Shown here one piece after another: positions 23,825 through 40,486 of a stretch of 64,000 nt of DNA (position 1 is its first letter; the number at the start of each line of letters is the position of its first letter). Both the position numbers and the translations under genes were made by a program. Source of the stretch: an uncultured Dehalococcoidia bacterium (GTDB lineage Bacteria > Chloroflexota > Dehalococcoidia > Lucifugimonadales > UBA3495). The stretch covers positions 199,029 to 263,028 of the forward strand of contig OX638345.1 in NCBI GenBank assembly GCA_951813535.1, read 5' to 3'. Below the pieces are notes generated by a model. The model ran no database searches, was not told the origin of the DNA, and saw only the letters and a program-made list of their open reading frames with translations.

Positions 23825-26755
23825 ATGGCGACGGTAATGGAACGCAGGATTCGCGGCCGCGAACGTCAGGAAATCGCCGACGAGTTGACCCGGCGCGTCG
23901 ACGGCGAGGTCCGTTTCGACCCGCATTCCCGTCTGCTCTACAGCACCGACGCCAGCATCTACCAGATGGAGCCCATCGGCGTTGTCATCCCGCGCTCCTC
24001 CGCTGACGTGCAGGCCGTGGTCGAGTTCGCCGCCCGTGAGGGTATCCCCGTGCTGCCCCGTTCCGGCGGCACCAGCCTGGCCGGCCAGACCGTCAACCAC
24101 GCCATCGTCATGGACTTCAGCAAGTACCTGAACAACGTCCTCGAGGTCAACGCCGAGGAGCAGTGGGCCCGCGTCCAGCCCGGCATCATCCTGGACCAGC
24201 TCACCCGCCAGATGGGTCCCCACGGCCTGCAGTACGCGCCCGACCCCACCACCGCCAACCGCGCCTGCGTCGGCGGCGGCATCGGCAACAACACCTGCGG
24301 CGCGCACTCCGTCATCTACGGCAAGACCCTGGACCACATCCAGGAGCTGGACGTCGTCCTCTCCGATGGTTCCACCGCCCACTTCGGCGAACTAAATCCC
24401 GCCGAGCTGGAATCCCGGGTCAGCGCCGGCGGCCTGGAGGGCGACATCTATCGCGGCGTCCTCCGCATCGCCCGCGAGCAGAAGGACGAGATCGACCGCA
24501 CCTATGCCAAGATCCAGCGCCGCGTCAGCGGGTACAACCTGGACGAGTTCATCCTGGACGACGCGCGACGCGGCGGCCCGGTGAACCTGGCCCGCATGGT
24601 CGTTGGCTCCGAGGGTACCCTGTGCGTGGTCACCGAGGCCAAGGTGAACCTGGTGCAGCGGCCCACCATGACGTCGCTGTCCGTGCTGCACTTCCGCACC
24701 ATCTACGACGCCAGCGAGGCCACCACCCGCGTCCTGCGCCACGAACCATCGTCCATCGAGCTGATCGACAAGATGGTCCTCGACCGTTCCCGCGAGGCCA
24801 TGGGGAACGCGCGGCTCCCCGGGTTTGTGGAGGGCGACCCCGGGGCCATGCTGGTTGTCGAGTTCTACGGCGAGTCAGAGCACGAACTCACCGCCAAGAT
24901 GGATGGCCTCAAGGCCGACATCGGGCTCGCCTACGCCTGCGTTAACATCCTGGACCGGGCCGGTCAGGCTGCCGTCTGGAACCTGCGCAAGGGCGGCCTC
25001 GGCCTGCTCATGAGCACCCGCGGCGACGCCAAGCCCATCCCCTTCGTGGAGGACCCGGCCGTCGACCCGTCGGTGATGGGCGAGTTCGTCCGCCGCTTCG
25101 ACGAGATCGTCACCGAGCACGGCACCACCGCCGGATACTACGGCCACGCCTCCGTGGGTTGCCTGCACATCCGCCCTCTGGTCAGCCTGAAGAACCAGGA
25201 CGGCATCGACAAGATGGTTTCGATTGGAGAGGCGGTTTCCGACCTCATCAAGGAGTTCGGCGGCTCGATGAGCGGCGAGCACGGCGACGGCATCGTGCGC
25301 GGTGTCTGGACCCGCAAGATGTTCGGCGACCAGATCTACAACGCCTTCCGAGAGCTGAAGCAGACCTGGGACCCCCAGGGCATCATGAACCCGGGCAAGA
25401 TCATAGACACGCCGCCCATGACCGAGAACCTGCGCTACGGAGTCGCCTACCAGCCTCAGGCGTTGGACACCACTCTGGACTTCTCCCAGGACTTCGGCTA
25501 TGCCGGCGCCGTGGAGATGTGCAACGGCATGGGCGCCTGCCGCAAGCTGGACGGCACCATGTGTCCGTCCTTCATGGCCACCCGCGACGAGGAACACTCC
25601 ACCCGGGGCCGCGCCAACCTGCTCCGCGCCGCTCTGTCCGGCCGCATGCCCGATGGCGCCGAAAGCTCCATCACCGACCACCGGCTGCACCAGGCCCTCG
25701 ATCTCTGCCTGGAGTGCAAGGCCTGCAAGGCCGAGTGCGAGTCCGGTGTGGACATGGCCAAGCTGAAGTACGAGTTCCTGGACCACTACCATAAGGAACA
25801 CGGCGTGCCGCTGCGCTCCCGCTTCTTCGCCAACATCAACGGGCTGAACAAGCTGGGTAGCCGCTACGCGCCGCTCACCAACTGGTTGGCCGGATCCGCC
25901 CTGGGCCGTTCACTGACGTCAAAGTTCCTGGGCATCGCGCCGCAACGCCAGCAGCCGGCCTTTGCGTCAATGTCCCTGCCCGACTGGTTCGCGCGGCGCG
26001 CTCCGAACGGGCATGGCGAGGCGAAGTACGGCACGGTCGCTCTCTACAACGACACCTTTATGAACTACAACTACCCCGAGATCGGCATCGCCGCCGTGGA
26101 GGTGCTGGAGGCCGCCGGCTACCGGGTCGAACTGGTCAACGGTGGCTGCTGCGGCCGTCCCATGATCTCGAAGGGTCTGCTGGACCAGGCCCGCGACCAG
26201 GCCCGTTCCAACATCGACACGCTGTACGGCTACGCCAGCCAGGGCATCCCCATCGTCGGCTGCGAGCCCAGCTGCCTGCTCACCCTGCGGGACGAGTATC
26301 CCGAATTCGTGGCGGACGACCGCGCCCGCATCGTCGCCGAAAACGCGTCCCTCATCGACGAGTTCATCGCCAACGCCCGATCCGAGGGCCGGCTGGATCT
26401 GCAATTCTCCGACCTGGAGAAGCAGGTGCTGTTCCACGGCCACTGCCACCAGAAGGCCATTGTCGGCACCGCCAGCTCAATGGCCGTGCTCAACATGCCA
26501 TCGGGCTACCGGGCCGAGCTGATCAATGCTGGGTGCTGCGGCATGGCCGGCTCCTTCGGCTTCGAGAAGGAGCACTACGACATCTCCATGCAGATCGGCG
26601 GCCTCTCCCTCTTCCCGGCAATCGAAGCGAAACCCGACGCCGAGGTCGCGGTCATGGGCGTCTCCTGCCGCCAGCAGGTGGAGCACGGAGCCGGACGCCG
26701 CGCCCGCCACCTGGTCGAGGTGCTGCGCGACGCGGTGGTGACCCCGTCGGGCTAG
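23825..26755 (+). CDS. FAD-binding and iron-sulfur fusion oxidase (GlcD/GlcF or D-lactate dehydrogenase type)
   Basis: 976 residues, GGAGG ten bases before the ATG. The N-terminal half is a PCMH-type FAD domain (LPRSGGTSLAGQTVNHAIVM, VGGGIGNNTCGAHS) with an FAD-oxidase C-terminal domain (VGCLHIRPL, MSGEHGDGIVRG). The second half carries two Cys clusters, CNGMGACRKLDGTMC with a downstream Pro, and CLECKACKAECESGVDM, then two CCG domains (NGGCCGRPMISKG, NAGCCGMAGSFGFEKEH). This architecture oxidises a 2-hydroxyacid such as glycolate or D-lactate and passes electrons on to the quinone pool. The start of the gene has a TATACT -10-like box at 23738-23743. Its stop overlaps that of the convergent CARDB gene. 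Confidence 0.92.
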   Translation: MATVMERRIRGRERQEIADELTRRVDGEVRFDPHSRLLYSTDASIYQMEPIGVVIPRSSADVQAVVEFAAREGIPVLPRSGGTSLAGQTVNHAIVMDFSKYLNNVLEVNAEEQWARVQPGIILDQLTRQMGPHGLQYAPDPTTANRACVGGGIGNNTCGAHSVIYGKTLDHIQELDVVLSDGSTAHFGELNPAELESRVSAGGLEGDIYRGVLRIAREQKDEIDRTYAKIQRRVSGYNLDEFILDDARRGGPVNLARMVVGSEGTLCVVTEAKVNLVQRPTMTSLSVLHFRTIYDASEATTRVLRHEPSSIELIDKMVLDRSREAMGNARLPGFVEGDPGAMLVVEFYGESEHELTAKMDGLKADIGLAYACVNILDRAGQAAVWNLRKGGLGLLMSTRGDAKPIPFVEDPAVDPSVMGEFVRRFDEIVTEHGTTAGYYGHASVGCLHIRPLVSLKNQDGIDKMVSIGEAVSDLIKEFGGSMSGEHGDGIVRGVWTRKMFGDQIYNAFRELKQTWDPQGIMNPGKIIDTPPMTENLRYGVAYQPQALDTTLDFSQDFGYAGAVEMCNGMGACRKLDGTMCPSFMATRDEEHSTRGRANLLRAALSGRMPDGAESSITDHRLHQALDLCLECKACKAECESGVDMAKLKYEFLDHYHKEHGVPLRSRFFANINGLNKLGSRYAPLTNWLAGSALGRSLTSKFLGIAPQRQQPAFASMSLPDWFARRAPNGHGEAKYGTVALYNDTFMNYNYPEIGIAAVEVLEAAGYRVELVNGGCCGRPMISKGLLDQARDQARSNIDTLYGYASQGIPIVGCEPSCLLTLRDEYPEFVADDRARIVAENASLIDEFIANARSEGRLDLQFSDLEKQVLFHGHCHQKAIVGTASSMAVLNMPSGYRAELINAGCCGMAGSFGFEKEHYDISMQIGGLSLFPAIEAKPDAEVAVMGVSCRQQVEHGAGRRARHLVEVLRDAVVTPSG

Positions 26756-29700
26756 CGCACCAGCGCCGGCGCTTTGGAACACACGACAGCGCGCGGCAGG
26801 CTCTCCCCAATCTCTCGTTGGTATCGCGCGCACTCCCACGGCGAAAGCTGGGCCGAACGCCATCGCCAGTACATCCGGGCCGGATCGTAGTTTCCACCCG
26901 TTGGGTTCGGCGATACATCCATTGGCGGGCCCGATGCCGGAGCAACCGGCCGGTCAATCGGAGTTTGCCTTTTGCCGACTACCAAAATGTCGTTGCGATA
27001 CCGGGCGATCGCCGACAGGTCGGCTTCCGATGCCGGCTCGGCGAATACCACTGGGCGGTGGTCGTTGCCAAACCCGACGGTGATGTCGCGGTTGGTCAGC
27101 AGGTGAACGTGGACCCGATCCGACTCATCGTTGTCGGGGTCGGTGTCATACTCCGCATCAACGCGAGCCAGTAATTCGTAGCCGCCCACCGGGTACCGCA
27201 GTGTCTTCCACGTGAACTCCACTTCTCTGAACTCGCCTGGTTCCAAGCTTGCGCCATGTTCGTACATCGTGTCGAGGTTGGCGCTGTCGAGCAGGTAGAC
27301 CGTGCCACGGCCCGCGTATGGCCCCTGGTTCTGTACCAGGGCGGTTATCTCAACCCAATCGCCTTTCACTATCGGGCGCAGTGGGTCCGGCGCCTGGATA
27401 TTGACAACAGCAAAATCGACTTCGGCCGGCCTCAGTCCTATCTCGAATGTTCTGACCGCGCCCGCCACCCCGGGTATCTGCACGCGGAACAGATGGTCAC
27501 CAGGTTCGTATCGGCTGGTGCGCCACGTGAAGCTCGCCGTGCCAACGGCTCCCGGCGCCACGCGAGGTCGCCTCGTTTCCGGTTGCTTGTCCCCTGAAGG
27601 AAAGTGCAAAGTGACCGGTATGTTGGCCGCGACCAGCCCATCGTTGCGTACCGTGACCGTGATGCGCACCGGTTCGCCCACCACCGGGGAGTCGGGGCTC
27701 CACGATATACCCACTATCGACGCGATCAACTGGGCGGAGATGAGCCTGATCTGGATTGTGGCGGATGTGTCCAGTTCGGTGATGTTGTACTCCGCCAGAA
27801 CCGTGGCGGTAAGAGTGTGAATTCCGGGATCGTAGTTTGAAGTCTTCCAGGTGAACTCGATGCGCGCTATTTCTCCCGGCTCGATCCGCGGGGACTTCCG
27901 TTCCGGCTGCTTGTCGCCGGCCGGAAACGAGAGCTGCAATGGAACGCTCCGGGCCGACGGGCCATTGTTGATCACATCGATCCAGACTTTCACTTCCTGA
28001 CCCTGGACTGCCATCTCGCTGGGGTCGGAGCCCATGCCGACGATGGCAACGTCAACGATGGGAGGGAGTAATTCGACGGTGAACTCACGCGTTGCTGGCG
28101 GCGTGCTCGCCACTTCGACGACGAACGCGTGGACCCCGGGTTCGTAGTGGCTGGTACGCCACGCGAAAGAAACCTCGCCGGTAGCTCCCGGGTCGACGCG
28201 GGGACGCCGGGTTTCCGGCTGTTTGTCACTTGATGGGAAATGCAGCGTGACCGGGATGTTGGCCGCAATCCGGCCGTCATTCCGCACGGTCACCGCAATG
28301 GTCACCGGTTCGCCGACGCGCGGCTCCTCCGGATTTACGGCGACGTCCACGATTGTCGCATCGATTATCAGGGGTGTCAGGGCGAACCTGATTTCCTCCG
28401 CAGTTCGGCCAAATGTAATGTTGCCGCCGAGGCGGATGGCCGCGCGCAAAGTGTAAATGCCCGGTTCGTAGTTTGAAGTTTTCCACTCGAACCAGACCCT
28501 CGCGGTTTCGCCCGGGGCCACCCGTGGCGACCGGACCTCCGGGCGCTTGCTGGCGGATGGGAACGTGAGCCGAACCGGAACGTTCAGGGCAACCGGCCCA
28601 TCGTTGCGGACGTCGATCCACACTTCCACCGGTTCGCCCACCATCGCGGTTTCGACCGGGTACGTGCCCATGCCCACAAGCGCGACGTTTTCCACGGTAG
28701 GCAATAGTTCGACAGTGAAGCGCTGTTGGGGAGTGTCTACGGCCGCTACCTCGATGCTGAATCGGTGCGTGCCCGGCCGGAAGTTGCCGGTGAGCCATTC
28801 GAAAACCACCGTCCCGGTTTCACCCGGATCCAGGCGCGGCTTCCTGCTATCAGGCTGTCTGCTGCCCGGCGGGAAGTGCAGCGCAATCGGGATTCTAGTC
28901 GCAACCGGCCCGTCGTTGCGAACCCTCACCGCTATCGAAACCGGCTCGCCTACCATCGGCGCTGTCGGGTATACCGAGACATCCACGATTGTTGCCGCGA
29001 CCACCAGCGGGGAGACACGGAACGGCAATTCCATCGATGTCTCGCCACCGGCGACGTTGTGCTGCTCGGGCACGGTCGCGGTTAGCATGTGCTCGCCAAC
29101 GGCGTAATCCCTGGTTTTCCATGCGAAACGGACGGTCTCAGTCGATTCTGCGGGCACCGACGGGCTGCGTGTCTCGGGGTTCTTGGTTGCCGATGGGAAG
29201 TGCAAGGTTACCGGCACGTTGACGCTGGCCAGCCCGTTGTTCCGCACCTCAACCTCGACCGCGACCTCTTCGCCCTGCATCGCGGTCTCCGCGGGCAACG
29301 CGTCGATGCTGACTATCTCGGCGTCGATGTGAACGGTGATCTCCGAATTGACAACGGCGATGGGGCCAAAGTCTTCTGAGAACGCAACTAATTTTAGAAT
29401 GTGTTGTCCCAGCATTTTGGCAGAGGCCGGGACACGCCAGGCAACCTGCTCTTCAGCCTGACCGTCCGACGCCAATTCATCGAGGTTTTTCGTGACTGTG
29501 GGTTCCAGCTCATCGTCGACATACAATTCCAGGTTGATGAAAAGGGCCACCTCGCTTTTGTTATGGATCGCCAGGGATACCGTAACGTCGTCGCCCAGCA
29601 TCAGGACCTCGGGCGAAACGGAGACGTCCAACATCTCAACCTCGACCATTGGGCCCATTCGGGTAATTTCAACGGTCGCCGTGTTGTTTTCCGGCGACTG

Positions 29701-32700
29701 ATCGATTGCCGCCGAGAGCAGGACTTCAACGGTATGAGCGCCGGGCAGCACACCCGTCACCGGCACTTCCAGACTTGCGGTTTTAGTTTCGCCCGCCCGT
29801 ATGACCATCGTATGCCGGTACAATTCCTGCGGTTCTGTTCCGTCCGTGGGAATCAACGCAAACCGGACGCTTGCCGGTTCGGTTGTCGGTCCGTCATTGG
29901 CCACCTCAACGGCAATTTCGACGGTTTCGGCGGCGAACCCCAGGGTGGTCTGTAGCGGTTGAACAGATACCAGTCGGACATCCACCGCTCCGAATTCCGG
30001 CCCGGACAACGACTGGCGCGGGCTGACTTCTTCGTCGTTTTGTTCCCCAAGGCGCACCACCAAATCCTCAGGATGGACGATATTCATCCGGTCTGTTGAC
30101 GCATTGGAGTTATTGGATACGTCGATGTCCACGAAGTCTTCCGGCCTCACAATGGTGACGGCAGCGTTGATCGGCTGGTCGCTCAAGGCCGGAAGCGTGG
30201 GAATTGTCCACGCGATTTCGCCCTCCGACTTTCCGCCGAAGGGAACGACGCAATTCGAAAAGCAGAGCGCTTCGGTATCGTTGACCGCGTGGTCCCCGGG
30301 GCCGCTCATCGTGATGGCAAGTGTGATGTCCGTCTGGCAGCTGAAATTGTAGATCCGGTACGCGGCCTTCAGTTGCTCGCCAACAAGGTAGTTCGGCGGC
30401 GAACGTTTTTGGCCGCTGAAGTCCCGGATGTCGGTGACTTTTATTCGGACATCCTCAACGCAGCCGTCCACATCTTCAGCGCCGTCGAATGCGGATCGGA
30501 ATAGCTCGATTTCCAGAAAATGCTCGTTGTCGGCGGTAGTAGTGTCCTCGGGAAGTTCCGCAGCGATTTTCAGCGTATGCGTTCCGACGCTTTCCCCGGT
30601 GGAGTCCCACTGCAGCCCCACCTCCGAACTGGATCCAGGCTCGATGCGCGACGATGTTCCCGTTGACGCAACCGTCGTTTGTTGCAGATCTCCGACCAGG
30701 TACAGGCCCACGGGTACCGCGACCGCGGCTTCTCCATGGTTGGTGATACTGGCAGCCACCTCCAGGGTTTGGCCGATGGCAGCCACGTCGCGATTGACGG
30801 TCGCAGCCGTGAGCGCCACGGCCATGACCGGCGCCCGGAGGGTCACGTCGAGCAGCGCTTCATCGTTGGAGTCGGCGTTGTACTCCGCAGAGCCAGCTAC
30901 GACCTTGAGCTGATACTCGCCGGGTCCGTCATCGCCGGCATCCCATGTCACGCTGGTCCCGACGGTTTCCCCGGCCGGGATTGACTCGATGGTTGCAGTT
31001 TCGCTCGCCTCTTCGGAGTCCCCGACATACAAACCGACCGCGACGTCGGTGACCTCGGCGTCGCTCTCGTTGAGCACCTGTACATTGACGGTAACGGACG
31101 ACCCGGCCACGTTGTCTGTCGATGCGAGAACGGCCGATGACAGCGCTATGGGATTTCGGAGATCAATGTTGACCCTTTGGCTGTCGTCTCCATCCGGGTC
31201 CTGACCATCCACGCCGGCGGATACTATGAGGCCGAGCACTTCGACCTCCCGACCGTCTGTGTCCCATTCAAATGTGGCGTCGGCGGTACTACCCGCTGCT
31301 ATGGACGCAATCGTCGTGGAACCCAGCGTGCCGGTCACGTTGGGTTCGAACAGGCCAACCGTCAAGTTGGTCAGTTCTTCCTGCCCGACGTTCGCAACCC
31401 GGGCGGCTAACTCGACCGCTTCCCCAACCACCGCGACGACCCTTTCCGGAGTGACGCTCTGGAGCACCAACCAGTTGCGTATTTCGATGCTTGCCGAGAC
31501 TGAGTTATTCCTCTGATCCGTATCCCCGGCCGTGGTTGCCACCAGCAAGATTTCATAGTGGCCGACATTCGCGTCCGCAGTGTCCCATGTCAGCGTGTCC
31601 GAGGTCGATTCATTGACTGCCAACGTTGATACATTGGCAGTCGCCGTAGCTTCCTCCTCCTGATCTTGACCGGCTTCAGTGACATAGAGACTGACCAGCA
31701 CTTCGACTGTGTCGTTCTCTCCAGAGTTGGTCACGGTAAACGGCACAGTCACGGAATTGCCGTTGACCGCTGAGGAGGCAACGGGACTGGTCAAACTCAA
31801 CGCGACTTCCACCGGATCGTGCAGGGTGAGCGATGCAGTCGCGCTGTCGTTGGTTGAATCGTCGTCGTCAGCAACCGTGGCGACTGCACGCAGACTGTAT
31901 GTCCCGGCTTCTGCGTCGTCGGTATCCCATGAGATGCTGACGGTGCCTGTCCCTCTGACCACGATCGTGGCGGCGGTCGCAGAGCCTAACGCTTCCGTGT
32001 CGTCCCCTTTGTATAACGAAACGGCGGGGGCAATCGCGACGTCGCCGTCATTTTCGAGGGAGACGGTGAAATCAACCGTTTCCCCAATGATCGCTTCGGC
32101 CGGCGACGCTTTCAGCGCGGTAACGGCGATGTCGATAGACGGCTCACGAAGGGTCACTCTGACCGTCTTGCTATCGTTCGCCGAGTTGCTGTCCCCCTCG
32201 GCTTCTGCCAGCACGCGCAGATCGTGTTCTCCCGCCTCTGCGTCGTCCGTGTCCCATGAGAGCGTCACCATGCTCTCTCCGTCGGCCGCGAGATCGGAAA
32301 CCATGGTTGAATCCAGTTCGTCCGTATCCTCGCCAAGGTCGAGGGTAACCGTGGCGTCGGCCTCCGCATCGCCGTTGTTTCTGATAGTAACGGTGAAATC
32401 AATGTCATCCCCAATCAAGGCCGCCGTCTTGGACGCCGTAGCCGATTTGACGGCGACGTCAACCGTAGACACTTCATTAACTATGTTGATGGCGTCAGTT
32501 GAGGTGGCGCTGTTATTGCTCGTATCGGCGTCGCTGAAATCCGACGGCGCGTCGATCGTTACGGTAGCAACCACCTTTTCACCGGTGGCGTTGGGGTGCT
32601 TGCTCAAATCCCACTGGGCGTTCGATTGTTGCGTTGCGCCGGCGGCTATGGTGCATCCGTCCAGACAAGGCGCTGAAGAGCCGTCGGCATCGTGAATTGT

Positions 32701-33021
32701 CGCCCCACTCACCGACCCCGTCAGAACCACTGTGACCGTTACTTCGCGGCAGCTCGCATTGACAACATCGTAAAAAATCACGATATCGTCCCCATTGGCG
32801 TAATCGGGAGGATCCTGGAAAACGTAGCCGTTACCGCGATCATAAATGGACAGATTCTGCACGCTCAGGTCGTCAACGCAGGACTGTTGCGGGGTCGCGC
32901 TCTCTGCAACTCCGGCAGGCAGGAATGCCTTCCAACCGGCGAGACCGGGCGACATGATTGCCAAAGCCACGCAACCGGTTGCCACCGCCAGGGTCAGTAC
33001 CAGCGGACGGACGCCGTTCAC
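26752..33021 (-). CDS. Giant secreted CARDB-repeat protein
   Basis: 2,089 residues. A signal peptide (residues 1-41, hydrophobic core LVLTLAVATGCVALAIM) is followed by a Cys-containing domain (about 48-185) and roughly 15 CARDB-like beta-sandwich repeats of about 100 residues, with the pattern VGExVxxxVxVxNxGxxxA and WxTxxYxPGxHxL. The first Cys domain recurs at about 852-980 with its Cys pattern kept (CV[DE]D, SC, CxxxC) and both copies ending near NIV. The last third alternates two repeat types (A and B) in about 210-residue supermodules, A repeats sharing IPVTLHFPS and KQPETRRPRV. No LPxTG, dockerin or C-terminal anchor is seen. Likely extracellular surface or matrix protein. Operon partner is the gene at 33067. 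Confidence 0.88.
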   Translation of the reverse strand: MNGVRPLVLTLAVATGCVALAIMSPGLAGWKAFLPAGVAESATPQQSCVDDLSVQNLSIYDRGNGYVFQDPPDYANGDDIVIFYDVVNASCREVTVTVVLTGSVSGATIHDADGSSAPCLDGCTIAAGATQQSNAQWDLSKHPNATGEKVVATVTIDAPSDFSDADTSNNSATSTDAINIVNEVSTVDVAVKSATASKTAALIGDDIDFTVTIRNNGDAEADATVTLDLGEDTDELDSTMVSDLAADGESMVTLSWDTDDAEAGEHDLRVLAEAEGDSNSANDSKTVRVTLREPSIDIAVTALKASPAEAIIGETVDFTVSLENDGDVAIAPAVSLYKGDDTEALGSATAATIVVRGTGTVSISWDTDDAEAGTYSLRAVATVADDDDSTNDSATASLTLHDPVEVALSLTSPVASSAVNGNSVTVPFTVTNSGENDTVEVLVSLYVTEAGQDQEEEATATANVSTLAVNESTSDTLTWDTADANVGHYEILLVATTAGDTDQRNNSVSASIEIRNWLVLQSVTPERVVAVVGEAVELAARVANVGQEELTNLTVGLFEPNVTGTLGSTTIASIAAGSTADATFEWDTDGREVEVLGLIVSAGVDGQDPDGDDSQRVNIDLRNPIALSSAVLASTDNVAGSSVTVNVQVLNESDAEVTDVAVGLYVGDSEEASETATIESIPAGETVGTSVTWDAGDDGPGEYQLKVVAGSAEYNADSNDEALLDVTLRAPVMAVALTAATVNRDVAAIGQTLEVAASITNHGEAAVAVPVGLYLVGDLQQTTVASTGTSSRIEPGSSSEVGLQWDSTGESVGTHTLKIAAELPEDTTTADNEHFLEIELFRSAFDGAEDVDGCVEDVRIKVTDIRDFSGQKRSPPNYLVGEQLKAAYRIYNFSCQTDITLAITMSGPGDHAVNDTEALCFSNCVVPFGGKSEGEIAWTIPTLPALSDQPINAAVTIVRPEDFVDIDVSNNSNASTDRMNIVHPEDLVVRLGEQNDEEVSPRQSLSGPEFGAVDVRLVSVQPLQTTLGFAAETVEIAVEVANDGPTTEPASVRFALIPTDGTEPQELYRHTMVIRAGETKTASLEVPVTGVLPGAHTVEVLLSAAIDQSPENNTATVEITRMGPMVEVEMLDVSVSPEVLMLGDDVTVSLAIHNKSEVALFINLELYVDDELEPTVTKNLDELASDGQAEEQVAWRVPASAKMLGQHILKLVAFSEDFGPIAVVNSEITVHIDAEIVSIDALPAETAMQGEEVAVEVEVRNNGLASVNVPVTLHFPSATKNPETRSPSVPAESTETVRFAWKTRDYAVGEHMLTATVPEQHNVAGGETSMELPFRVSPLVVAATIVDVSVYPTAPMVGEPVSIAVRVRNDGPVATRIPIALHFPPGSRQPDSRKPRLDPGETGTVVFEWLTGNFRPGTHRFSIEVAAVDTPQQRFTVELLPTVENVALVGMGTYPVETAMVGEPVEVWIDVRNDGPVALNVPVRLTFPSASKRPEVRSPRVAPGETARVWFEWKTSNYEPGIYTLRAAIRLGGNITFGRTAEEIRFALTPLIIDATIVDVAVNPEEPRVGEPVTIAVTVRNDGRIAANIPVTLHFPSSDKQPETRRPRVDPGATGEVSFAWRTSHYEPGVHAFVVEVASTPPATREFTVELLPPIVDVAIVGMGSDPSEMAVQGQEVKVWIDVINNGPSARSVPLQLSFPAGDKQPERKSPRIEPGEIARIEFTWKTSNYDPGIHTLTATVLAEYNITELDTSATIQIRLISAQLIASIVGISWSPDSPVVGEPVRITVTVRNDGLVAANIPVTLHFPSGDKQPETRRPRVAPGAVGTASFTWRTSRYEPGDHLFRVQIPGVAGAVRTFEIGLRPAEVDFAVVNIQAPDPLRPIVKGDWVEITALVQNQGPYAGRGTVYLLDSANLDTMYEHGASLEPGEFREVEFTWKTLRYPVGGYELLARVDAEYDTDPDNDESDRVHVHLLTNRDITVGFGNDHRPVVFAEPASEADLSAIARYRNDILVVGKRQTPIDRPVAPASGPPMDVSPNPTGGNYDPARMYWRWRSAQLSPWECARYQREIGESLPRAVVCSKAPALVR

Positions 33022-33066
33022 AATCGAACCCGGTTAGCAGAGCCCTCAGATTAGACGGATCCCGCG

Positions 33067-34098
33067 TCAGGAGCTCGGTTTGGTGTACACAAACATGACC
33101 GCCCCGGTTGCGGTTGCTCCGGTGTCGACGGCGACTGTAACTTCGTAGAGACGGCTCGCATCGTCGGTACGTTCCAATTCGAAGCCCGATACGGCCAACC
33201 GGGAGGGTTCCTGAACTGTCACGACCGCATTGCCATCTACCATCAATTCGGCCGTCACCGCGGATTGATCCTGCGTCCGCCTACTGGTGATCAACACCGC
33301 TGCCGACGCCAGGATGTTGTCGATGGTCGGCGGGACTACGAACCTGACCGGATCGGATGTCCCTCCTTCTGACGCATGGCTGAACAGGATAAAGGCGTTA
33401 TACTCCGGATGTTGCCAGTGGTAATAGCCGACCGTGTCGTGATCCGCCTCGACGATTTCCGGCACGTCTTGCCTGGCAACTGACAGCACCTCGTTAATGG
33501 CCAGGACCAGAAGGTTCTGTTTCAGATCGTTCGCCGGCAGGTTCGCCGAGTCGTACTGCCAGATGCCGGCGGCAGGCGCGTCGGACGGCAGATATGCCAC
33601 GACCCACCCGCGGTCATCGAAATACACCGTGACCCGTGTAGGCGGCACTGTGGGCCCGAAGTTCTTCGTGGCGGACATCGGCAACTCCACTATGCCAAAA
33701 TTGCCTCCCGAATCCACATGGTGGCCGGGGTCCACGCGGTTGCTGTTTGATTCGTCCGGATCTTCGAGCAGGGCATTCGTGATGGCGAATACATTGAGTC
33801 GCGGACGGAGGTCATTTTCCCCGTCTCCCTGGAAGTGGTCCGGAACCCGGTGATGCGCAGAAAAGCCAGCAGCCTCTTCACGAAACGCCGTGGTATCGTC
33901 GCTCTGGGAGGTGGCCGCCAAATCGTTCGGCTCCGCCAGGCCCCAAACTGTTACAGTACCAGTGCGCGCTTGGCTGGCTTCTGCCGGTGATCCATTGCCC
34001 AGCCAGAAAATCAGGGCAGCCGACACAGCAACAGCCACATGAACCCAGAGCAAACGATTGGAAATTAGTTCTCGATACGACGTGTTTTGATGTTTCAT
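33067..34098 (-). CDS. Membrane-anchored or secreted protein co-transcribed with the giant CARDB gene
   Basis: 343 residues from the ATG at 34098; an upstream ATG at 34188 would add a 30-residue tail before the membrane segment and is less likely. A hydrophobic segment (VHVAVAVSAALIFWLG, about 19-34) ends near SPAEASQA, a possible signal peptidase site. The remainder is exported: Asp/Asn/His-rich GQ-like stretch HFQGDGENDLRPRLNVF, a beta-rich middle (RVTVYFDDRGWVVAYLPSD), and a C-terminal beta domain ending VMFVYTKPSS. The central part with YLPSDAPAAGIWQYD resembles exported Chloroflexi proteins I cannot name. It precedes the CARDB gene by 45 bases. Confidence 0.7.
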   Translation of the reverse strand: MKHQNTSYRELISNRLLWVHVAVAVSAALIFWLGNGSPAEASQARTGTVTVWGLAEPNDLAATSQSDDTTAFREEAAGFSAHHRVPDHFQGDGENDLRPRLNVFAITNALLEDPDESNSNRVDPGHHVDSGGNFGIVELPMSATKNFGPTVPPTRVTVYFDDRGWVVAYLPSDAPAAGIWQYDSANLPANDLKQNLLVLAINEVLSVARQDVPEIVEADHDTVGYYHWQHPEYNAFILFSHASEGGTSDPVRFVVPPTIDNILASAAVLITSRRTQDQSAVTAELMVDGNAVVTVQEPSRLAVSGFELERTDDASRLYEVTVAVDTGATATGAVMFVYTKPSS

Positions 34099-34198
34099 AG
34101 GGCAAAATCGCACGACTTCGTCAAAAGGTGTGTGAAACGAGCAAAGTAGTGGCTTGATATTGCACGATATTTGGTGTGAACATCCCATACCTTTGACT

Positions 34199-34226
34199 TG
34201 CCACTAATTGGGGCGTGCTGGATAAT
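34199..34226 (+). promoter_or_regulatory. Candidate promoter of the membrane HTH gene
   Basis: TTGCCA (34199-34204), 16-base spacer, GATAAT (34221-34226), about 70 bases upstream of the ATG and just before the palindrome at 34249-34270. Confidence 0.45.
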
Positions 34227-34248
34227 AAGCACGAGATTGCCGAAAGTC

Positions 34249-34270
34249 TGTGCAAATGCCAATTTGCACA
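34249..34270. promoter_or_regulatory. Perfect 9+9 palindrome, candidate operator of the membrane HTH regulator
   Basis: TGTGCAAAT, spacer GCCA, ATTTGCACA: arms are perfectly complementary. It lies 27-48 bases before the HTH gene start, downstream of its candidate promoter, in a position to block transcription. A related half-site (ATTGCACG) occurs near 34159 in the same divergent region, closer to the secreted-protein operon. Confidence 0.6.
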
Positions 34271-34296
34271 TGTCACTGTCGTAGCGTGCAGAAAAC

Positions 34297-35757
34297 ATGG
34301 GACTGGAACGCGAGGACCGCCGGTTGAGAGCCGCCCAGGTGGGTATGCTGATGCGGGCCTACCGCGAGTCCTTCGTGCAGCCCGACGGTCGCAAAGGCCT
34401 TACCCAGGAAGAGTTGCTGGGCCGCATGGCGGAAGTGGATGGCCAGTACGGGGAGCGGTACAGCCATAGCACCGTGTCCCGCTGGGAGTCTGGTGCGACG
34501 CGCCCGACCAAGCAACGGTTGATAGCGTTTGGCAAAGCCCTCGAACTGTCATCGGTGGAAGTGGAAGGGTTGATAACCTTGGCGGGTCTGGATAGCCGTG
34601 ATCCGCCTGTCCCCCTTCACCAAATGTCCCCTTCGGGCACCTCACGCGCTGGCGTTTCTGATGACTCGAGGGATGCGCTGGCGAATCTCGGCGTTGCGGA
34701 TTCTCAGGCCGGGGAGAGATTGGTCGCTTCATCCAATCTCTCCGGAGCGATCCGTTTTTGTCTCTCGCGGTTCCTGTTGCCGGGACTGTGCGTCGCTGGC
34801 GGCGGGTATGTGCTGTCGTCCCTTGGTTGGACCGCAGACTGGATACTGACCTTCTTCATTGCCGTCGTTATGGGGCTGGTGCTGACCCAGGGATTTCTCC
34901 GGATGCGCAAGGGGGATCAGCTACGCGAATTCTTCTTCGTGTCGCTGTTCTTCCTGCTGAGTACCCCCTTGCTGCAGATGCCGCTAATTCGCATGGACAA
35001 CTATGGCCTCTACACCATCCCCGATTTTGCGGGCACGCCGATACCCTGCCTGCTGGCGCTGTTGGTGAACTTGGCTCTGGCTCTAATTGCAGGGCTGATG
35101 TTCGACTTTTTGTGGAAATGGCAGTACTCCAAGGAAGTCAGCGAGCGACGGGCTCCGCAGAGAGCGGCGTGGGTTGCGCTCCTGCCGTTGGCATTTGTTT
35201 ATTGCTGCGTCATGGTCATCTCCAACGTTGGCTCCTGGATACATCTTACGGTGATTATGCCCGTTTTAGGCGTCGTGTTTATCACCCTGCTGGTGCTGCG
35301 CGACCCGGTCGTCACGCCGCGGGAACGCGATCTGAGATTCCTGCTTTGGGCGGTGGTGACGGCGATTATCGTACTGTCGGCCCTCGGCGGAGCCGCCATC
35401 CTGACGCTCTATCTGGCGCCCAGTTCGCTGCCCCAGCCGGACCATAACCTCCTGTATTCCTGGAATATCGATTTCGCCGCGCTGGGATACACCCAGGATG
35501 AGTTGACCGAAAGATTGCATCTCGGATTTATCTGGGTCGCGCTGTCCAATCTCGTTTACGTGGTGGTCGTTATTGGAGGGAACCTCATCGTCGCCATCTA
35601 CAGGCGTGGCAGCGGCAGCGGCGCCCAGCCCGCCACTGGGGTCTCCGAGCTGTCCGTCTCCGAGCCGTCTGATGAGCCTCCTCACTCTCAACAGATGAAA
35701 TCCCTCTTTATCCCCAAACTTATCCGAAATCGCCCTGGCGATCCTCGAGCAGCTTAG
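34297..35757 (+). CDS. XRE-type HTH protein with multi-pass membrane domain
   Basis: 486 residues. An N-terminal helix-turn-helix (about 10-90) has GLTQEELLGRMAEVDG and YSHSTVSRWESGATRPTKQRLI, the Cro/C1-type fold. A linker (about 90-150) leads to about eight hydrophobic segments, for example LPGLCVAGGGYVLSSLG, WILTFFIAVVMGLVL, EFFFVSLFFLLSTPLLQM, LLALLVNLALALIAGLM, WVALLPLAFVYCCVMVI and LSNLVYVVVVIGGNLIVAIY. DNA-binding domain should be cytoplasmic with the membrane part acting as sensor. It is divergent from the secreted CARDB operon, with a palindrome in front. I do not know a described family with this architecture; a one-component membrane regulator is the inference. Confidence 0.82.
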   Translation: MGLEREDRRLRAAQVGMLMRAYRESFVQPDGRKGLTQEELLGRMAEVDGQYGERYSHSTVSRWESGATRPTKQRLIAFGKALELSSVEVEGLITLAGLDSRDPPVPLHQMSPSGTSRAGVSDDSRDALANLGVADSQAGERLVASSNLSGAIRFCLSRFLLPGLCVAGGGYVLSSLGWTADWILTFFIAVVMGLVLTQGFLRMRKGDQLREFFFVSLFFLLSTPLLQMPLIRMDNYGLYTIPDFAGTPIPCLLALLVNLALALIAGLMFDFLWKWQYSKEVSERRAPQRAAWVALLPLAFVYCCVMVISNVGSWIHLTVIMPVLGVVFITLLVLRDPVVTPRERDLRFLLWAVVTAIIVLSALGGAAILTLYLAPSSLPQPDHNLLYSWNIDFAALGYTQDELTERLHLGFIWVALSNLVYVVVVIGGNLIVAIYRRGSGSGAQPATGVSELSVSEPSDEPPHSQQMKSLFIPKLIRNRPGDPRAA

Positions 35758-35897: not shown

Positions 35898-35909
35898 GAA
35901 CGTCTGTGC
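35898..35909 (+). promoter_or_regulatory. SOS-box-like sequence upstream of imuB
   Basis: GAAC-4-GTGC differs by one base from the Gram-positive-type LexA core GAAC-4-GTTC, 17 bases before the imuB ATG and next to TTATAA. Suggestive only; no lexA in the window. Confidence 0.3.
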
Positions 35910-35925
35910 TGTTATCTTGTGGCGC

Positions 35926-37326
35926 ATGGACACCACAGTCGGATGCCTGCTGGTTACGCACTTTCCCGTAAAGGCCGAACTGGCGCGACGGCCTGATCTG
36001 GCGGGCCGCCCCTTGGTTGTGGCCACCGGAGACTCCGGCCGTCGCCTGGTGGTGGACGCCTCGCCGGAAGCCGGAGACGTTCGTGCCGGACAGACGTTGA
36101 CGGAGGCATTGTCCCGGTGTGCGGAGGCGGTGGTTTTAGCCGTAGATGACCAGTATTTGTCGTCATTCAACGATGATCTGATGCTCTCGCTGTTTCAGGT
36201 TGTGGATCGAGTGGAGCCGGACGGTTACGGTCGTTTCTATCTGGACCTGACCGGGATGGCGTCCATGCACGGCGGAGCGTCCGGCCTGGAGACGGCGATC
36301 CTGTCCACGATTGATTCCAGCCTGCAACCCCGGCTGGGGTTGGCGTCAGGCAAGTTGCCGGCCTACTGCGCTGCGGCCAGCGCCGAGGTCGGCAAGGGGT
36401 TCACGGCCCCGGGAAACGTCGCTCGATGGCTGGCGCCCTGGCCGGTGTCGTGGCTTCCGCTGGACCCCGATATCACGGCGCGGTTGCGCGGTTTTGGCAT
36501 CGCCACGCTGGGCAACGTGGCCGCGATGCCGGCACACGTCCTGGCGGATTTTCTGGGAGTCGTTGGATACCGAGCCTGGAAGCTGGCCCAGGGCATTGAT
36601 GACGACCCGGTGGTTCCGGCAGCGCTGCCGGAGGTGCTTCACGAACGCATGGAGTTCCCGTTTCCGGTGGATACGGTTTCCGGTTGGGAAGCCGGCGTTC
36701 GCCTGTTGTCCGAACGCATTTGGAAGGCTCCTGGCCTTCAGGGTAGAGGGATAACGGAAGTATCGATCGAGGGTGAGCTTTCGCCGAATGGCATCTGGCA
36801 ATTTGACCGGCGTCTTCGCACCCCCGCCGGCTCATCCGATAGTCTGGCGTCAACGATTCTGGCCGGGTTGAATGCCCAGGACAACCGGGGTCACGGTCGC
36901 TGGCCCTGCGCAGCCTTGACGGACCTGTCGCTCACGGTGTCCGGCCTGGTCCATTTGGGCGGTCGGCAAATGGGCCTGTGGCTGGCGGAGCGCCGGGGTG
37001 CGGCCGTCCCGACGATTGACGGAGTTGACCGTCCCGTGGCGCTGGCTCTCGGGTCGCCCTTGCCGGAGCGGCGGTGGGCCCTGGGTTCCGAGCTGACGCC
37101 GCTGGGCCGGGTCGCCGCCGTGGCCGTTTCCGCGGTCCAAAACGTGCCTCGAGCAGTGGAGTCGCACTCCGTCCGGAAAGTGATTGACCTGTGGGAAGTG
37201 GATACCGAGTGGTGGATGCCCGAGCCGGCCCGCCGGCGGTACTGGCGCCTGGTGGTGGACGGAGGCAAGTTGCTCACGGTGTACCGCGACCTCGCCACCG
37301 GCGAGTGGTATCGGCAGGGTTACTGA
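35926..37326 (+). CDS. imuB: ImuB-like Y-family polymerase homologue
   Basis: 466 residues from the ATG at 35926. ImuB is a catalytically dead Y-family polymerase that links the beta clamp to DnaE2 in the mutasome. The N-terminal strand reads GCLLVTHFPVKAELARRP, lacking the catalytic Asp of the YxDxDxFFA motif, and the second motif is FYLDLTGMASMHGG, both ImuB hallmarks. A palm/thumb region with RLRGFGIATLGNVAAMPAHVLADFLG (helix-hairpin-helix) follows; the C-terminus (WWMPEPARRRYWRLVVDGG) is a DUF6504-like tail seen in ImuB. One base separates it from dnaE2. No imuA/recA-like partner precedes it. Confidence 0.88.
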   Translation: MDTTVGCLLVTHFPVKAELARRPDLAGRPLVVATGDSGRRLVVDASPEAGDVRAGQTLTEALSRCAEAVVLAVDDQYLSSFNDDLMLSLFQVVDRVEPDGYGRFYLDLTGMASMHGGASGLETAILSTIDSSLQPRLGLASGKLPAYCAAASAEVGKGFTAPGNVARWLAPWPVSWLPLDPDITARLRGFGIATLGNVAAMPAHVLADFLGVVGYRAWKLAQGIDDDPVVPAALPEVLHERMEFPFPVDTVSGWEAGVRLLSERIWKAPGLQGRGITEVSIEGELSPNGIWQFDRRLRTPAGSSDSLASTILAGLNAQDNRGHGRWPCAALTDLSLTVSGLVHLGGRQMGLWLAERRGAAVPTIDGVDRPVALALGSPLPERRWALGSELTPLGRVAAVAVSAVQNVPRAVESHSVRKVIDLWEVDTEWWMPEPARRRYWRLVVDGGKLLTVYRDLATGEWYRQGY

Positions 37327-37327
37327 C

Positions 37328-40300
37328 TTGTCCACCGGCTTCATTGAGCTTTGCGCCCACTCCTGGTATTCCTTCGGCGCTGGCGCTTCGTCTCCGGCAG
37401 AGCTGGTGGAACGGGCCGGTTGTTACGGCTATCCAGCCCTGGGTGTGACCGATACGAGCAATTTGTGCGGCGCGCTGGATTTCGTGCAAGAGTGCCGGTC
37501 CGCTGGCATACAGGCGATACTGGGCGCCGACCTGACCGTTCGGGAGGGTGACCGGAGTGGCCCGGTGACCTTTATCGCGGAGAGCGGCGCGGGTTACTCC
37601 AACCTGTGTCGGCTGATATCGCTGGCGCACGTAACGGGCGGACGAACCACGCCGGTTCTGGACATCCGCTTCCTGGAGCCGCACGCCGAGGGTCTTATCG
37701 TACTGCTGGGGAATCCGGATGGCCTGCTGGCGGAGGACATTGCCGCCGGACGCTGGAGCATGGCCGAGGGACGGGCAAGGCAATACGCCGGCTGGTTCGG
37801 CGCCGGGTCGGTATTTCTGGCGCTGCAGCAGCATCTGGTCCATGGCGATACCGTCCGCAACGAGCGTATGTCACAGCTGGCGGAGCGGTGTGGCCTGGGC
37901 TGCGTTGCGACCAATGCTCCCTGGTATCACGATGCCTCCCGCGCACGGCTGCACGACTCGCTTACAGCCATGCGCTTGAACTCTTCTCTAAGCGAGATAC
38001 GTAACAGTCTTAAGGTCAATGGCAACTACGATCTGCAAGCAAGAGATGTGATGCAACGACGCTTCCGCAAATATCCGGAGGCCCTTGCCAACACACTTTT
38101 CCTGGCGGAGCGGTGTTCCGATTTTGGCGCGCTGGATTTCGTTGCCAGCAGCTACCGTTTCCCGGATGTGCCCACGCCGCCGGGCCACGACGCGCAGTCA
38201 TGGCTGGAGCGTCTCTGCGAGGAGTCGGCAGCGCGACGCTATGGCGGTGTCGACCGGCGGGTGAGAGAACGCCTGGATGAGGAGTTCAGGCTAATCCGGA
38301 AGCATGGTTTAGCCGGGTTCTTCCTGGTCTATCACCGGGTGGTGGAACTGGCGCGCGAGGTCATGCTGGAGCTGGGATGGGGACACCAGGAAACGCCCCT
38401 GGAGTGGCTCCCTCCGGGTCGTGGGCGCGGCTCCTCGGTGTCAATGCTGGTGGGATACCTGATCGGCCTGTCCCACGTTGACCCGCTGGACTACGGCCTG
38501 GCCCTGGACCGTTTCCTGTCGTCCGAGAGCACGTCGATGCCGGATATCGACCTGGACTTTCCCCGGGACATACGCGAGCGTCTCATACTGCGCATCATCG
38601 AGGAGTGGGGTTGGGACCATGCCGTACTGACGGGAATGTTCCCCACGTACAAGGCGCGAGGGGTGGTGCGGGGACTGGGCAAGGCCCTGGGATTGCCGCC
38701 TGACGAGGTGGGCGCGCTGGCCCGTCGGCTGGATTCCAACTCCGTGTCGGAGCTGCCCTATCTGCCCGGCTACGGGGAACTGGTGAAGCGGCCGGGTTGG
38801 GACCGCCTCTTCGCCCTTGCCGACAGCCTCCAGGGCTTTCCCAAGGGTGTGGCGCAGCACCCGGGCGGAATGCTGCTGAGCTCCACCGCCCTCACGGACT
38901 TCATGCCGGTGCAGCCGGCCGCCATTGCGGGACGCTACATCGGCCAGTGGGACAAGGAGAGCGTGGATGACGCCGGCATGGTGAAGATCGACCTCCTGGC
39001 CCTGGGAGCCCTGTCCCAGTTGCAGCAGGCGGTGCGGCTGGTCCGGAACCGCACCGGCATTGAGCCGGACCTGAGCCGGATCGACTACCGGGAGCAGGAC
39101 GTTTTTGACGACCTGGGGCGGGGTGACACCGTGGGAGTCTTCCAGGTGGAGTCCGCGGCGCAGATGCAGACCATTGTGCGTATGCATCCCCAGGACATCT
39201 ACGAGCTGGCCCTGGAAATCGCTGCGGTGCGTCCCGGTGTGGGGGCGCATGACGGCGTGGCGGAGTTCCTGCGCCGGCGCAAGGGGGCTGACTGGGAGTA
39301 TGCTCACCCCCTGGAACAAGGAGCCCTGGAGCGGTCGCTGGGAGTGATAATGTTCCAGGATCAGGTGGTGCAGCTCGGCATGGACGTGGGCGGTTTCACC
39401 GCTGCGGACGCGGACCGGATGCGACGCGCTTTTGGACGCCGTAACGGCGCCGCCCTGGTGGCGGAGTACCGGCAGCGTTTCCTGCAGGGCGCCCGTGAGC
39501 GCGGCGTGCCCGAAAATGCGGCCGAAGCGATCTTCGGGAAGTTCAATCCCCACTACATGTTTCCGGAGGGCCACGCCCTAGCGTTCGCTTTTACCGCCTA
39601 CCAGATGGCGTGGCTGCGCCGTCACTACCCGCTGGAGTTCTACGTCGCGCTCTTCAACGAGCAGCCCATGGGCTTCTGGGACCTGGACACGCTGAAGCAG
39701 GATGCCCGACGGATCAACCTGCGGGTGGCCCATCCCGACATCAATCGTTCCGGGCTGCTGTGCACCGCAGAGGGCGAGCGCACGCTGCGGCTGGGGCTGA
39801 CCTTTGTGAAGGGCGTGGACCGTCGCCTGGGCGAGATTCTGCTGCGCGCGCGCGAGGCCGGCGAATTCAGGGGCCTGGCGGATGTGCTGGCGCGCTCCGG
39901 CCTGCCACGCCGGGCATTGGAGAACCTGGCCCGCGCCGGCGCAATGGACAGCCTGCCGGATGTCACCGACCGGGGCAGCGCGCTGTGGCAGATCGGGGCC
40001 GGCTACGTGCCGGACGCGCGCCGCGGCCAGCTGGCGCTACCCATGGCGGTGGCCGAAGCGCCGGCAGCGGTGGCGTCGAAGAACCGGTCCATGCTGATGC
40101 TGGACGAATACGACATGCTGGGCCTCTGCCCGGATGGCCACATCATGGAACTGGCGCGCCACGAGCTGAGAGGAGTGCATAGCAGCGATACCCTGGAGGG
40201 CTGCCACGAAGGCGATGTGGTCCGCGTGGCGGGCCGGGTCGTCAGGCGGCAGCGTCCCCTGGCCCGGGCCGTGTTCCTCACCCTGGAAGACGAATTCGGG

Positions 40301-40486
40301 TTGATACCGGTGGCCGTTTGGGAGCAGCGCTGGGAGATGCTCAAGCACGTGCTGCGGCGGCCGCTGGTCGTCATTGAAGGTAAAGTTTCCCGCCGGGACA
40401 ACACACTCAACGTGATGGCGGAACGGGCGTGGCCACTGCGGGCCGATATGGAATTTCACGCCGGTTCCGGACATGACTGGAGGTAA
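37328..40486 (+). CDS. dnaE2: Error-prone DNA polymerase III alpha subunit DnaE2
   Basis: 1,052 residues from a TTG at 37328, one base after the imuB stop, which gives the expected start of the PHP domain (IELCAHSWYSFGAG). The first His of the usual HxH is Cys, consistent with loss of PHP metal chemistry in DnaE2. Polymerase residues are in SMPDIDLDFPRDIRERL (about residue 400), with RGSSVSMLVGYLIGLSHVDPL and VAQHPGGMLLS; an OB domain (GDVVRVAGRVVRRQRPL) lies near the C-terminus. It performs mutagenic translesion synthesis with ImuB. Length and order match DnaE2. The 50-base gap to the convergent kinase gene holds nothing. Confidence 0.93.
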   Translation: MSTGFIELCAHSWYSFGAGASSPAELVERAGCYGYPALGVTDTSNLCGALDFVQECRSAGIQAILGADLTVREGDRSGPVTFIAESGAGYSNLCRLISLAHVTGGRTTPVLDIRFLEPHAEGLIVLLGNPDGLLAEDIAAGRWSMAEGRARQYAGWFGAGSVFLALQQHLVHGDTVRNERMSQLAERCGLGCVATNAPWYHDASRARLHDSLTAMRLNSSLSEIRNSLKVNGNYDLQARDVMQRRFRKYPEALANTLFLAERCSDFGALDFVASSYRFPDVPTPPGHDAQSWLERLCEESAARRYGGVDRRVRERLDEEFRLIRKHGLAGFFLVYHRVVELAREVMLELGWGHQETPLEWLPPGRGRGSSVSMLVGYLIGLSHVDPLDYGLALDRFLSSESTSMPDIDLDFPRDIRERLILRIIEEWGWDHAVLTGMFPTYKARGVVRGLGKALGLPPDEVGALARRLDSNSVSELPYLPGYGELVKRPGWDRLFALADSLQGFPKGVAQHPGGMLLSSTALTDFMPVQPAAIAGRYIGQWDKESVDDAGMVKIDLLALGALSQLQQAVRLVRNRTGIEPDLSRIDYREQDVFDDLGRGDTVGVFQVESAAQMQTIVRMHPQDIYELALEIAAVRPGVGAHDGVAEFLRRRKGADWEYAHPLEQGALERSLGVIMFQDQVVQLGMDVGGFTAADADRMRRAFGRRNGAALVAEYRQRFLQGARERGVPENAAEAIFGKFNPHYMFPEGHALAFAFTAYQMAWLRRHYPLEFYVALFNEQPMGFWDLDTLKQDARRINLRVAHPDINRSGLLCTAEGERTLRLGLTFVKGVDRRLGEILLRAREAGEFRGLADVLARSGLPRRALENLARAGAMDSLPDVTDRGSALWQIGAGYVPDARRGQLALPMAVAEAPAAVASKNRSMLMLDEYDMLGLCPDGHIMELARHELRGVHSSDTLEGCHEGDVVRVAGRVVRRQRPLARAVFLTLEDEFGLIPVAVWEQRWEMLKHVLRRPLVVIEGKVSRRDNTLNVMAERAWPLRADMEFHAGSGHDWR

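Follow-up and report, generated by a model that had tools for sequence, protein, structure and literature searches.

The regulator encoded in the window (the whole stretch of DNA that was analyzed, 64,000 nucleotides long, from the 4.38-Mb one-contig genome G000) is, judging from its sequence, a member of an undescribed family of membrane-built DNA-binding proteins, in which an XRE domain is combined with eight membrane helices. We consider it probable (about 0.62) that this membrane one-component regulator autoregulates and controls exported adhesin-like proteins. The regulators of the family probably sense the cell exterior and set which surface proteins get made, because a shared predicted site precedes large exported adhesin-like genes. 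The features of the locus are listed in Table 1.

Table 1. Features of the regulator locus and the neighboring operon, in window positions.
Feature	Position	Strand	Remarks
Giant exported CARDB-repeat protein, 2,089 aa, 17 repeats	26752..33021	-	Pfam, iterated repeat profile
Exported protein, 343 aa, with N-terminal hydrophobic segment	33067..34098	-	Genus core gene; most likely start, corrected from 34188
Older promoter region of the exported-protein/CARDB operon	34099..34196	-	Shared with G012, which lacks the regulator here
Sigma-70-like promoter of the regulator, TTGCCA-17-GATAAT	34198..34226	+	10/12 match; hexamers identical in three orthologs
Predicted operator, AGTCTGTGCA-N9-TTGCACA	34245..34270	+	Holds the 9+9 palindrome
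Third half-site-like GTGCA	34286..34290	+	Similar distance after TTGCAC in most of nine aligned sites
Membrane-embedded XRE regulator, 486 aa	34297..35757	+	HTH residues ~10-97, linker, eight membrane helices ~140-438, tail
Half-operator GTCTGTGC directly before imuB	35902..35909	+	GTCTGTGC/GTCTGTAC in three orthologs

Residues 15-90 of the regulator match the Pfam families HTH_31 and HTH_3, and eight hydrophobic segments are found in the hydropathy profile. The alignment-based AlphaFold model (mean pLDDT 80), which superseded a prediction from the single sequence (pLDDT 47), contains the XRE domain and eight membrane helices. An earlier note on this DNA had described a cytoplasmic XRE domain with about eight membrane helices and had proposed structure prediction of the membrane domain; Pfam, hydropathy, and the full-length model, which includes that domain, agree with the description. 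In a fold search with the full protein as the query, matches of the HTH part to XRE structures (Z values of 8-10.6) took up the result lists, and nothing but the HTH was matched. A sequence search against solved structures gave no match. The membrane part has no convincing Pfam match in the 26 family members searched. Conservation within the membrane domain is strongest in two loops, RMDxYGFY and LPDHNLLxSWEIDFxxLGY, both of which would be exposed to the exterior, assuming an N-in topology with the HTH inside. In distant relatives, the same helices are accompanied not by the HTH but by a C-terminal domain that is winged-helix-like (L081 6214-7548; L082 953-2095 and 8957-10324); the helices may form a sensor module that is reused.

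The family set comprises 36 loci. Matches to the family occur in 21 of the 250 genomes of the order, several of which carry three to seven copies, and in only six genomes among 393 of the class, the genomes compared being mostly MAGs with varying completeness. A divergent upstream neighbor is present at 35 of the 36 loci. This partner is exported in 9 of 14 independent groups vs 13 of 84 divergent neighbors in the background (Fisher p = 3e-4), where export was assigned by hydropathy with no signal-peptide program, some gene starts may be wrong, and genes were called with a home-made finder that had been trained on this window. The exported partners are the CARDB pair, a protein of 268-313 aa, a YscW-type lipoprotein, an LRR lipoprotein, another lipoprotein-like protein, and giant proteins whose domains are Calx-beta, cadherin, or cadherin-like/LRR, or which have none known. 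Every clade of the regulator tree retains its own partner, with 13 changes for 13 partner labels (minimum 12). Some family groups, among them that of gamma-glutamyltranspeptidase (gGT) and those of L076 and L078, lack an exported divergent neighbor.

The partners of several clades are described here in their own right. The 268-313-aa exported protein, divergent from the regulator across five families, forms the best-conserved pair (L062, L063, L121, L122, L124, and L127-L130) and has no clear Pfam match. At L069, L073, and L126, which belong to two separate clades, a histidine kinase-type protein and a response regulator are divergent from the regulator, and giant exported proteins are located nearby. 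The clade of L060, L065-L068, and L071 faces gGT, with the exported neighbor absent, and a dihydroorotase-like gene lies downstream in most copies.

Downstream of the regulator's promoter lies a perfect 9+9 inverted repeat, TGTGCAAAT-GCCA-ATTTGCACA, at 34249-34270, as the earlier note had reported. Inverted repeats of this class are not rare alone, since the window contains 22 overlapping matches, several of them intergenic; the weight of the palindrome lies in its conservation and recurrence, not in its length. The core common to the three orthologs is TGTGCAA-N8-TTGCACA. In most of nine such sites, which represent four kinds of locus and include unlinked loci, a -10-like GGATAATA is located 15-16 bp before AAAGTCTGTGCA. 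The promoter TTGCCA-17-GATAAT would place the predicted operator approximately 10-40 bp after the transcription start, where sites for repression are typically found. The distance from the operator to the exported gene is approximately 150 bp in the window.

The operator motif was found after looking, and out-of-group and genome-wide tests serve as the guard. In the short-exported group of other families, AGTCTGTGCA is found at a similar place before the regulator. With a matrix trained on this group alone, four untrained groups (those of the window, L126, L120, and L125) yield sites that outscore every one of the 336 upstream regions of the background, and several groups of the regulator family show no match to the operator. 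The exact motif GTCTGTGCA-N5..12-TTGCAC has 2, 3, and 4 copies in G000, G001, and G013, respectively, and 36 other genomes, 11 of which are in the same genus, have no close form of it. These three genomes are one sub-lineage, and therefore the joint presence of operator and regulator in them counts as one event.

A sequence-only model of nine window-type sites was run over 247 genomes and is strong in G000, G001, and G013 only. Its only match in each of G054 and G196 is the promoter of the genome's own family member. The eight further matches in family-bearing genomes whose loci were examined (G000:590205, two in G001, G013:C143, G002:C111, G054, G196, and G064), one of which in G001 is apparently orthologous to a training locus and five of which are weak (E 0.001-0.028), are all intergenic and upstream of exported genes, six of these genes encoding at least 800 aa. 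Among random positions, 0.8% are as close as this to where an exported gene of at least 800 aa begins. In genomes with no member of the regulator family, 0 of 19 matches are before exported genes; a looser gene rule raises this count to 2 of 19. The proteins at the matched and training loci include FN3 arrays, a Spondin_N/cadherin-like/Calx-beta/FN3 protein, an RCC1-repeat protein with FN3, and two exported proteins with no Pfam family; a heavy-metal P-type ATPase and DUF3090, neither of which is an exported protein, are also included.

The loci of the latter two are as follows. In L245, the site at 2568 (G000:C1:152067-152143) is a full promoter-operator unit before a DUF3090/PI-kinase-like locus, which is found in all three genomes, and a second TGTGCAAA site follows shortly after the first. 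The heavy-metal P-type ATPase, which has an HMA domain, is preceded by the operator in G001 and G013 (L243 and L244; sites at ~3424 and ~3608). The operator before the ATPase hints at a metal-linked cue.

The promoter and the operator lie in the regulator's own upstream half, the promoter region of the CARDB operon is common to a genome that has no regulator here, and GTCTGTGC is also found before imuB. All of this would fit a regulator that controls only itself, perhaps together with imuB-dnaE2 downstream, beside a CARDB neighborhood that is accidental. However, unlinked exported-protein genes have this operator upstream as well, the neighbors of the family are biased toward exported proteins, and imuB is unlinked to the family elsewhere in the genus. 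We regard control of the regulator alone as unlikely, though a serious alternative. The imuB/dnaE2 genes (35917-40486) have GTCTGTGC 1.66 kb from the regulator's operator, and only four copies of GTCTGTGC occur in the genome background, an evenly spaced 400-kb sample. The imuB-dnaE2 pair is a possible second target. A single cassette of the regulator with imuB-dnaE2 was considered and rejected, as imuB homologs are located away from the family in other genomes of the genus.

The operator might instead belong to another DNA-binding protein of the sub-lineage, either a global regulator or the paralog of the YscW-lipoprotein group, the membrane regulator being merely one of its targets. The distribution of the operator coincides with the three-genome sub-lineage, and the YscW-lipoprotein-group paralog is seen in the same three genomes only (G000, G001, and G013). 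Against this, the sole genomic site in two other families (G054 and G196) is the promoter of the membrane-XRE gene, and the matrix from those other families finds the window site. We consider another binder rather improbable. The element might also act as RNA, with the palindrome forming a hairpin in the transcript leader instead of a site for protein binding, since it is downstream of the -10 box and the window transcript has a foldable hairpin (z -2.0); but six folded sites have no common structure (z -2.0 to +0.3), the inner stem positions are not kept complementary, and no Rfam match was found. On the lack of a common fold and of an Rfam match, this reading was rejected as very improbable.

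Of the products of the exported-protein/CARDB operon, the giant fits the 2,089-residue secreted repeat protein that had been described, the ORF being confirmed with a signal-like N-terminus and CARDB repeats. Pfam CARDB matches it in 12 stretches with E = 2.5e-79 (262 bits vs the curated cut-off of 22.7). The iterated repeat profile detects 17 repeats in the window giant, 5-21 in most orthologs, and one in a 356-aa ortholog. The start of the 343-aa protein is most likely at 34098 rather than at 34188, where the 373-aa ORF begins, because orthologs have TGA in the extension and the coding signal ends at approximately 34053-34098. The protein had been called anchored. Its single N-terminal hydrophobic segment is followed by a signal-peptidase-like AEA, and therefore anchoring does not follow. 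No Pfam or NCBIfam family matches the 343-aa protein, and homology to the short exported partner of the other families was looked for and not found (hhalign probability 2.3%). The gene is present in all 14 genomes of the genus and in some other genera of the same taxonomic family, and a homolog of the giant follows it in 12 related loci. An FAD-oxidase-type gene (23825-26755) is usually found on the far side of the pair. The pair exists throughout the genus as an independent locus, and the number of repeats is strongly variable among species.

The regulator adjoins this operon in only 3 of the 14 genus genomes (G000, G001, and G013). G004 and G012 have a different flank beyond the operon, yet the upstream 100 bp of the operon are alignable between the window and G012; the regulator therefore either joined a pre-existing operon or was lost in the other genomes. 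The related half-site that the earlier note placed toward the operon, TTGCAC near 34160, reads TTTCAC in G001 and G012; it was ruled out as a conserved element and, from this comparison, belongs to the older operon promoter. That note had joined the three genes into one dedicated surface system, which a lack of conserved gene order in relatives would speak against. The arrangement is retained in three genomes, but the pair is widespread in the genus with no regulator beside it and other family members face unrelated proteins, so that a three-part system, the least probable of the readings, is contradicted by gene order. Its broader proposal, that a membrane HTH protein controls surface proteins, holds for the regulator family, which has divergent exported neighbors and a recurrent operator.

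Autoregulation with control of exported adhesin-like proteins, the reading that we prefer, would operate as follows. The cytoplasmic XRE domain would bind the operator, AGTCTGTGCA-N9-TTGCACA, together with the third, TGTGCA-like half-site. From the location of the operator just downstream of the regulator's own -10 box, we infer that the regulator autoregulates, repression being the simplest form. The eight-helix domain would receive an envelope or external cue, upon which DNA binding would change. Through the operator copies elsewhere, large exported adhesin-like proteins of the FN3 and spondin/cadherin-like/Calx-beta types would be controlled, and also a few other genes, namely the heavy-metal P-type ATPase and the DUF3090 locus. 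In one sub-lineage, the regulator would have been placed beside the older exported-protein/CARDB operon and probably controls it too, although the promoter region of the operon itself is older than the regulator.

The named carriers of the family are SAR202, Dehalococcoidia, and Chloroflexota MAGs. Among them, bin87 and bin16 are from the sponge Aplysina aerophoba (PMC5649159), the prefix jk18x occurs in work on Ircinia sponges (PMC9531527), and a sponge source is suggested for other bins by their names. The window bacterium is related to sponge symbionts. A tentative extension, which as a whole we hold to be rather unlikely, is that the eight-helix XRE family was duplicated in sponge-symbiont SAR202, with most paralogs tied to their own adhesin-like protein and several sharing an operator code, and that the cell switches its surface proteins by host-matrix sensing through the membrane domain. 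No paper on a membrane XRE regulator in SAR202 was found in the open-access literature. Sponge symbionts reportedly carry many cadherin, FN3, and other eukaryote-like proteins to which attachment to the host is ascribed, and, to our knowledge, no account of their regulation in uncultured symbionts has been published. The regulator family, the predicted operator, and the predicted targets are concrete and can be tested with synthetic DNA in a laboratory host. One-component signaling also gains a multi-pass membrane domain that has no family name.

Transmembrane transcription regulators (TTRs), such as ToxR, TcpP, and CadC, have a DNA-binding domain and membrane helices and are thought to act from the membrane (PMC10269533). 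Like them, the window regulator is one protein with both parts, and it possesses two elements of that paper's definition of TTRs, a DNA-binding domain and at least one transmembrane region. A third element is a response to an extracellular or membrane cue, for which the observation here is that conserved loops of the membrane domain are predicted to lie outside. The ToxR/CadC pattern is a winged helix, a single transmembrane helix, and a periplasmic sensor; the window regulator differs from it in having an XRE domain and eight helices, in having no separate periplasmic domain, and in that its membrane domain belongs to no Pfam family. The membrane-bound transcription factors of Sulfolobus acidocaldarius are described, in the part of the source covered, as one-component factors that control archaella and type IV pili (PMC6396743). 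By that description, they resemble the window regulator as membrane-bound one-component regulators with surface structures as targets, which are predicted ones in our case, and differ from it in being archaeal and in serving archaella and type IV pili. According to the covered part of another report, sponge-associated genomes are enriched in cadherin and FN3 genes, for which a role in attachment is proposed (PMC8163846). The partner proteins found here share these domains with the sponge-symbiont proteins, and a regulator is associated with them here, unlike in that part of the report, where none is described. The soluble XRE regulators C.AhdI, ClgR, and BldD, and 3pxp of Chloroflexus, have the same fold as the N-terminal domain, and the XRE domain here is, unlike in these soluble proteins, fused to eight membrane helices.
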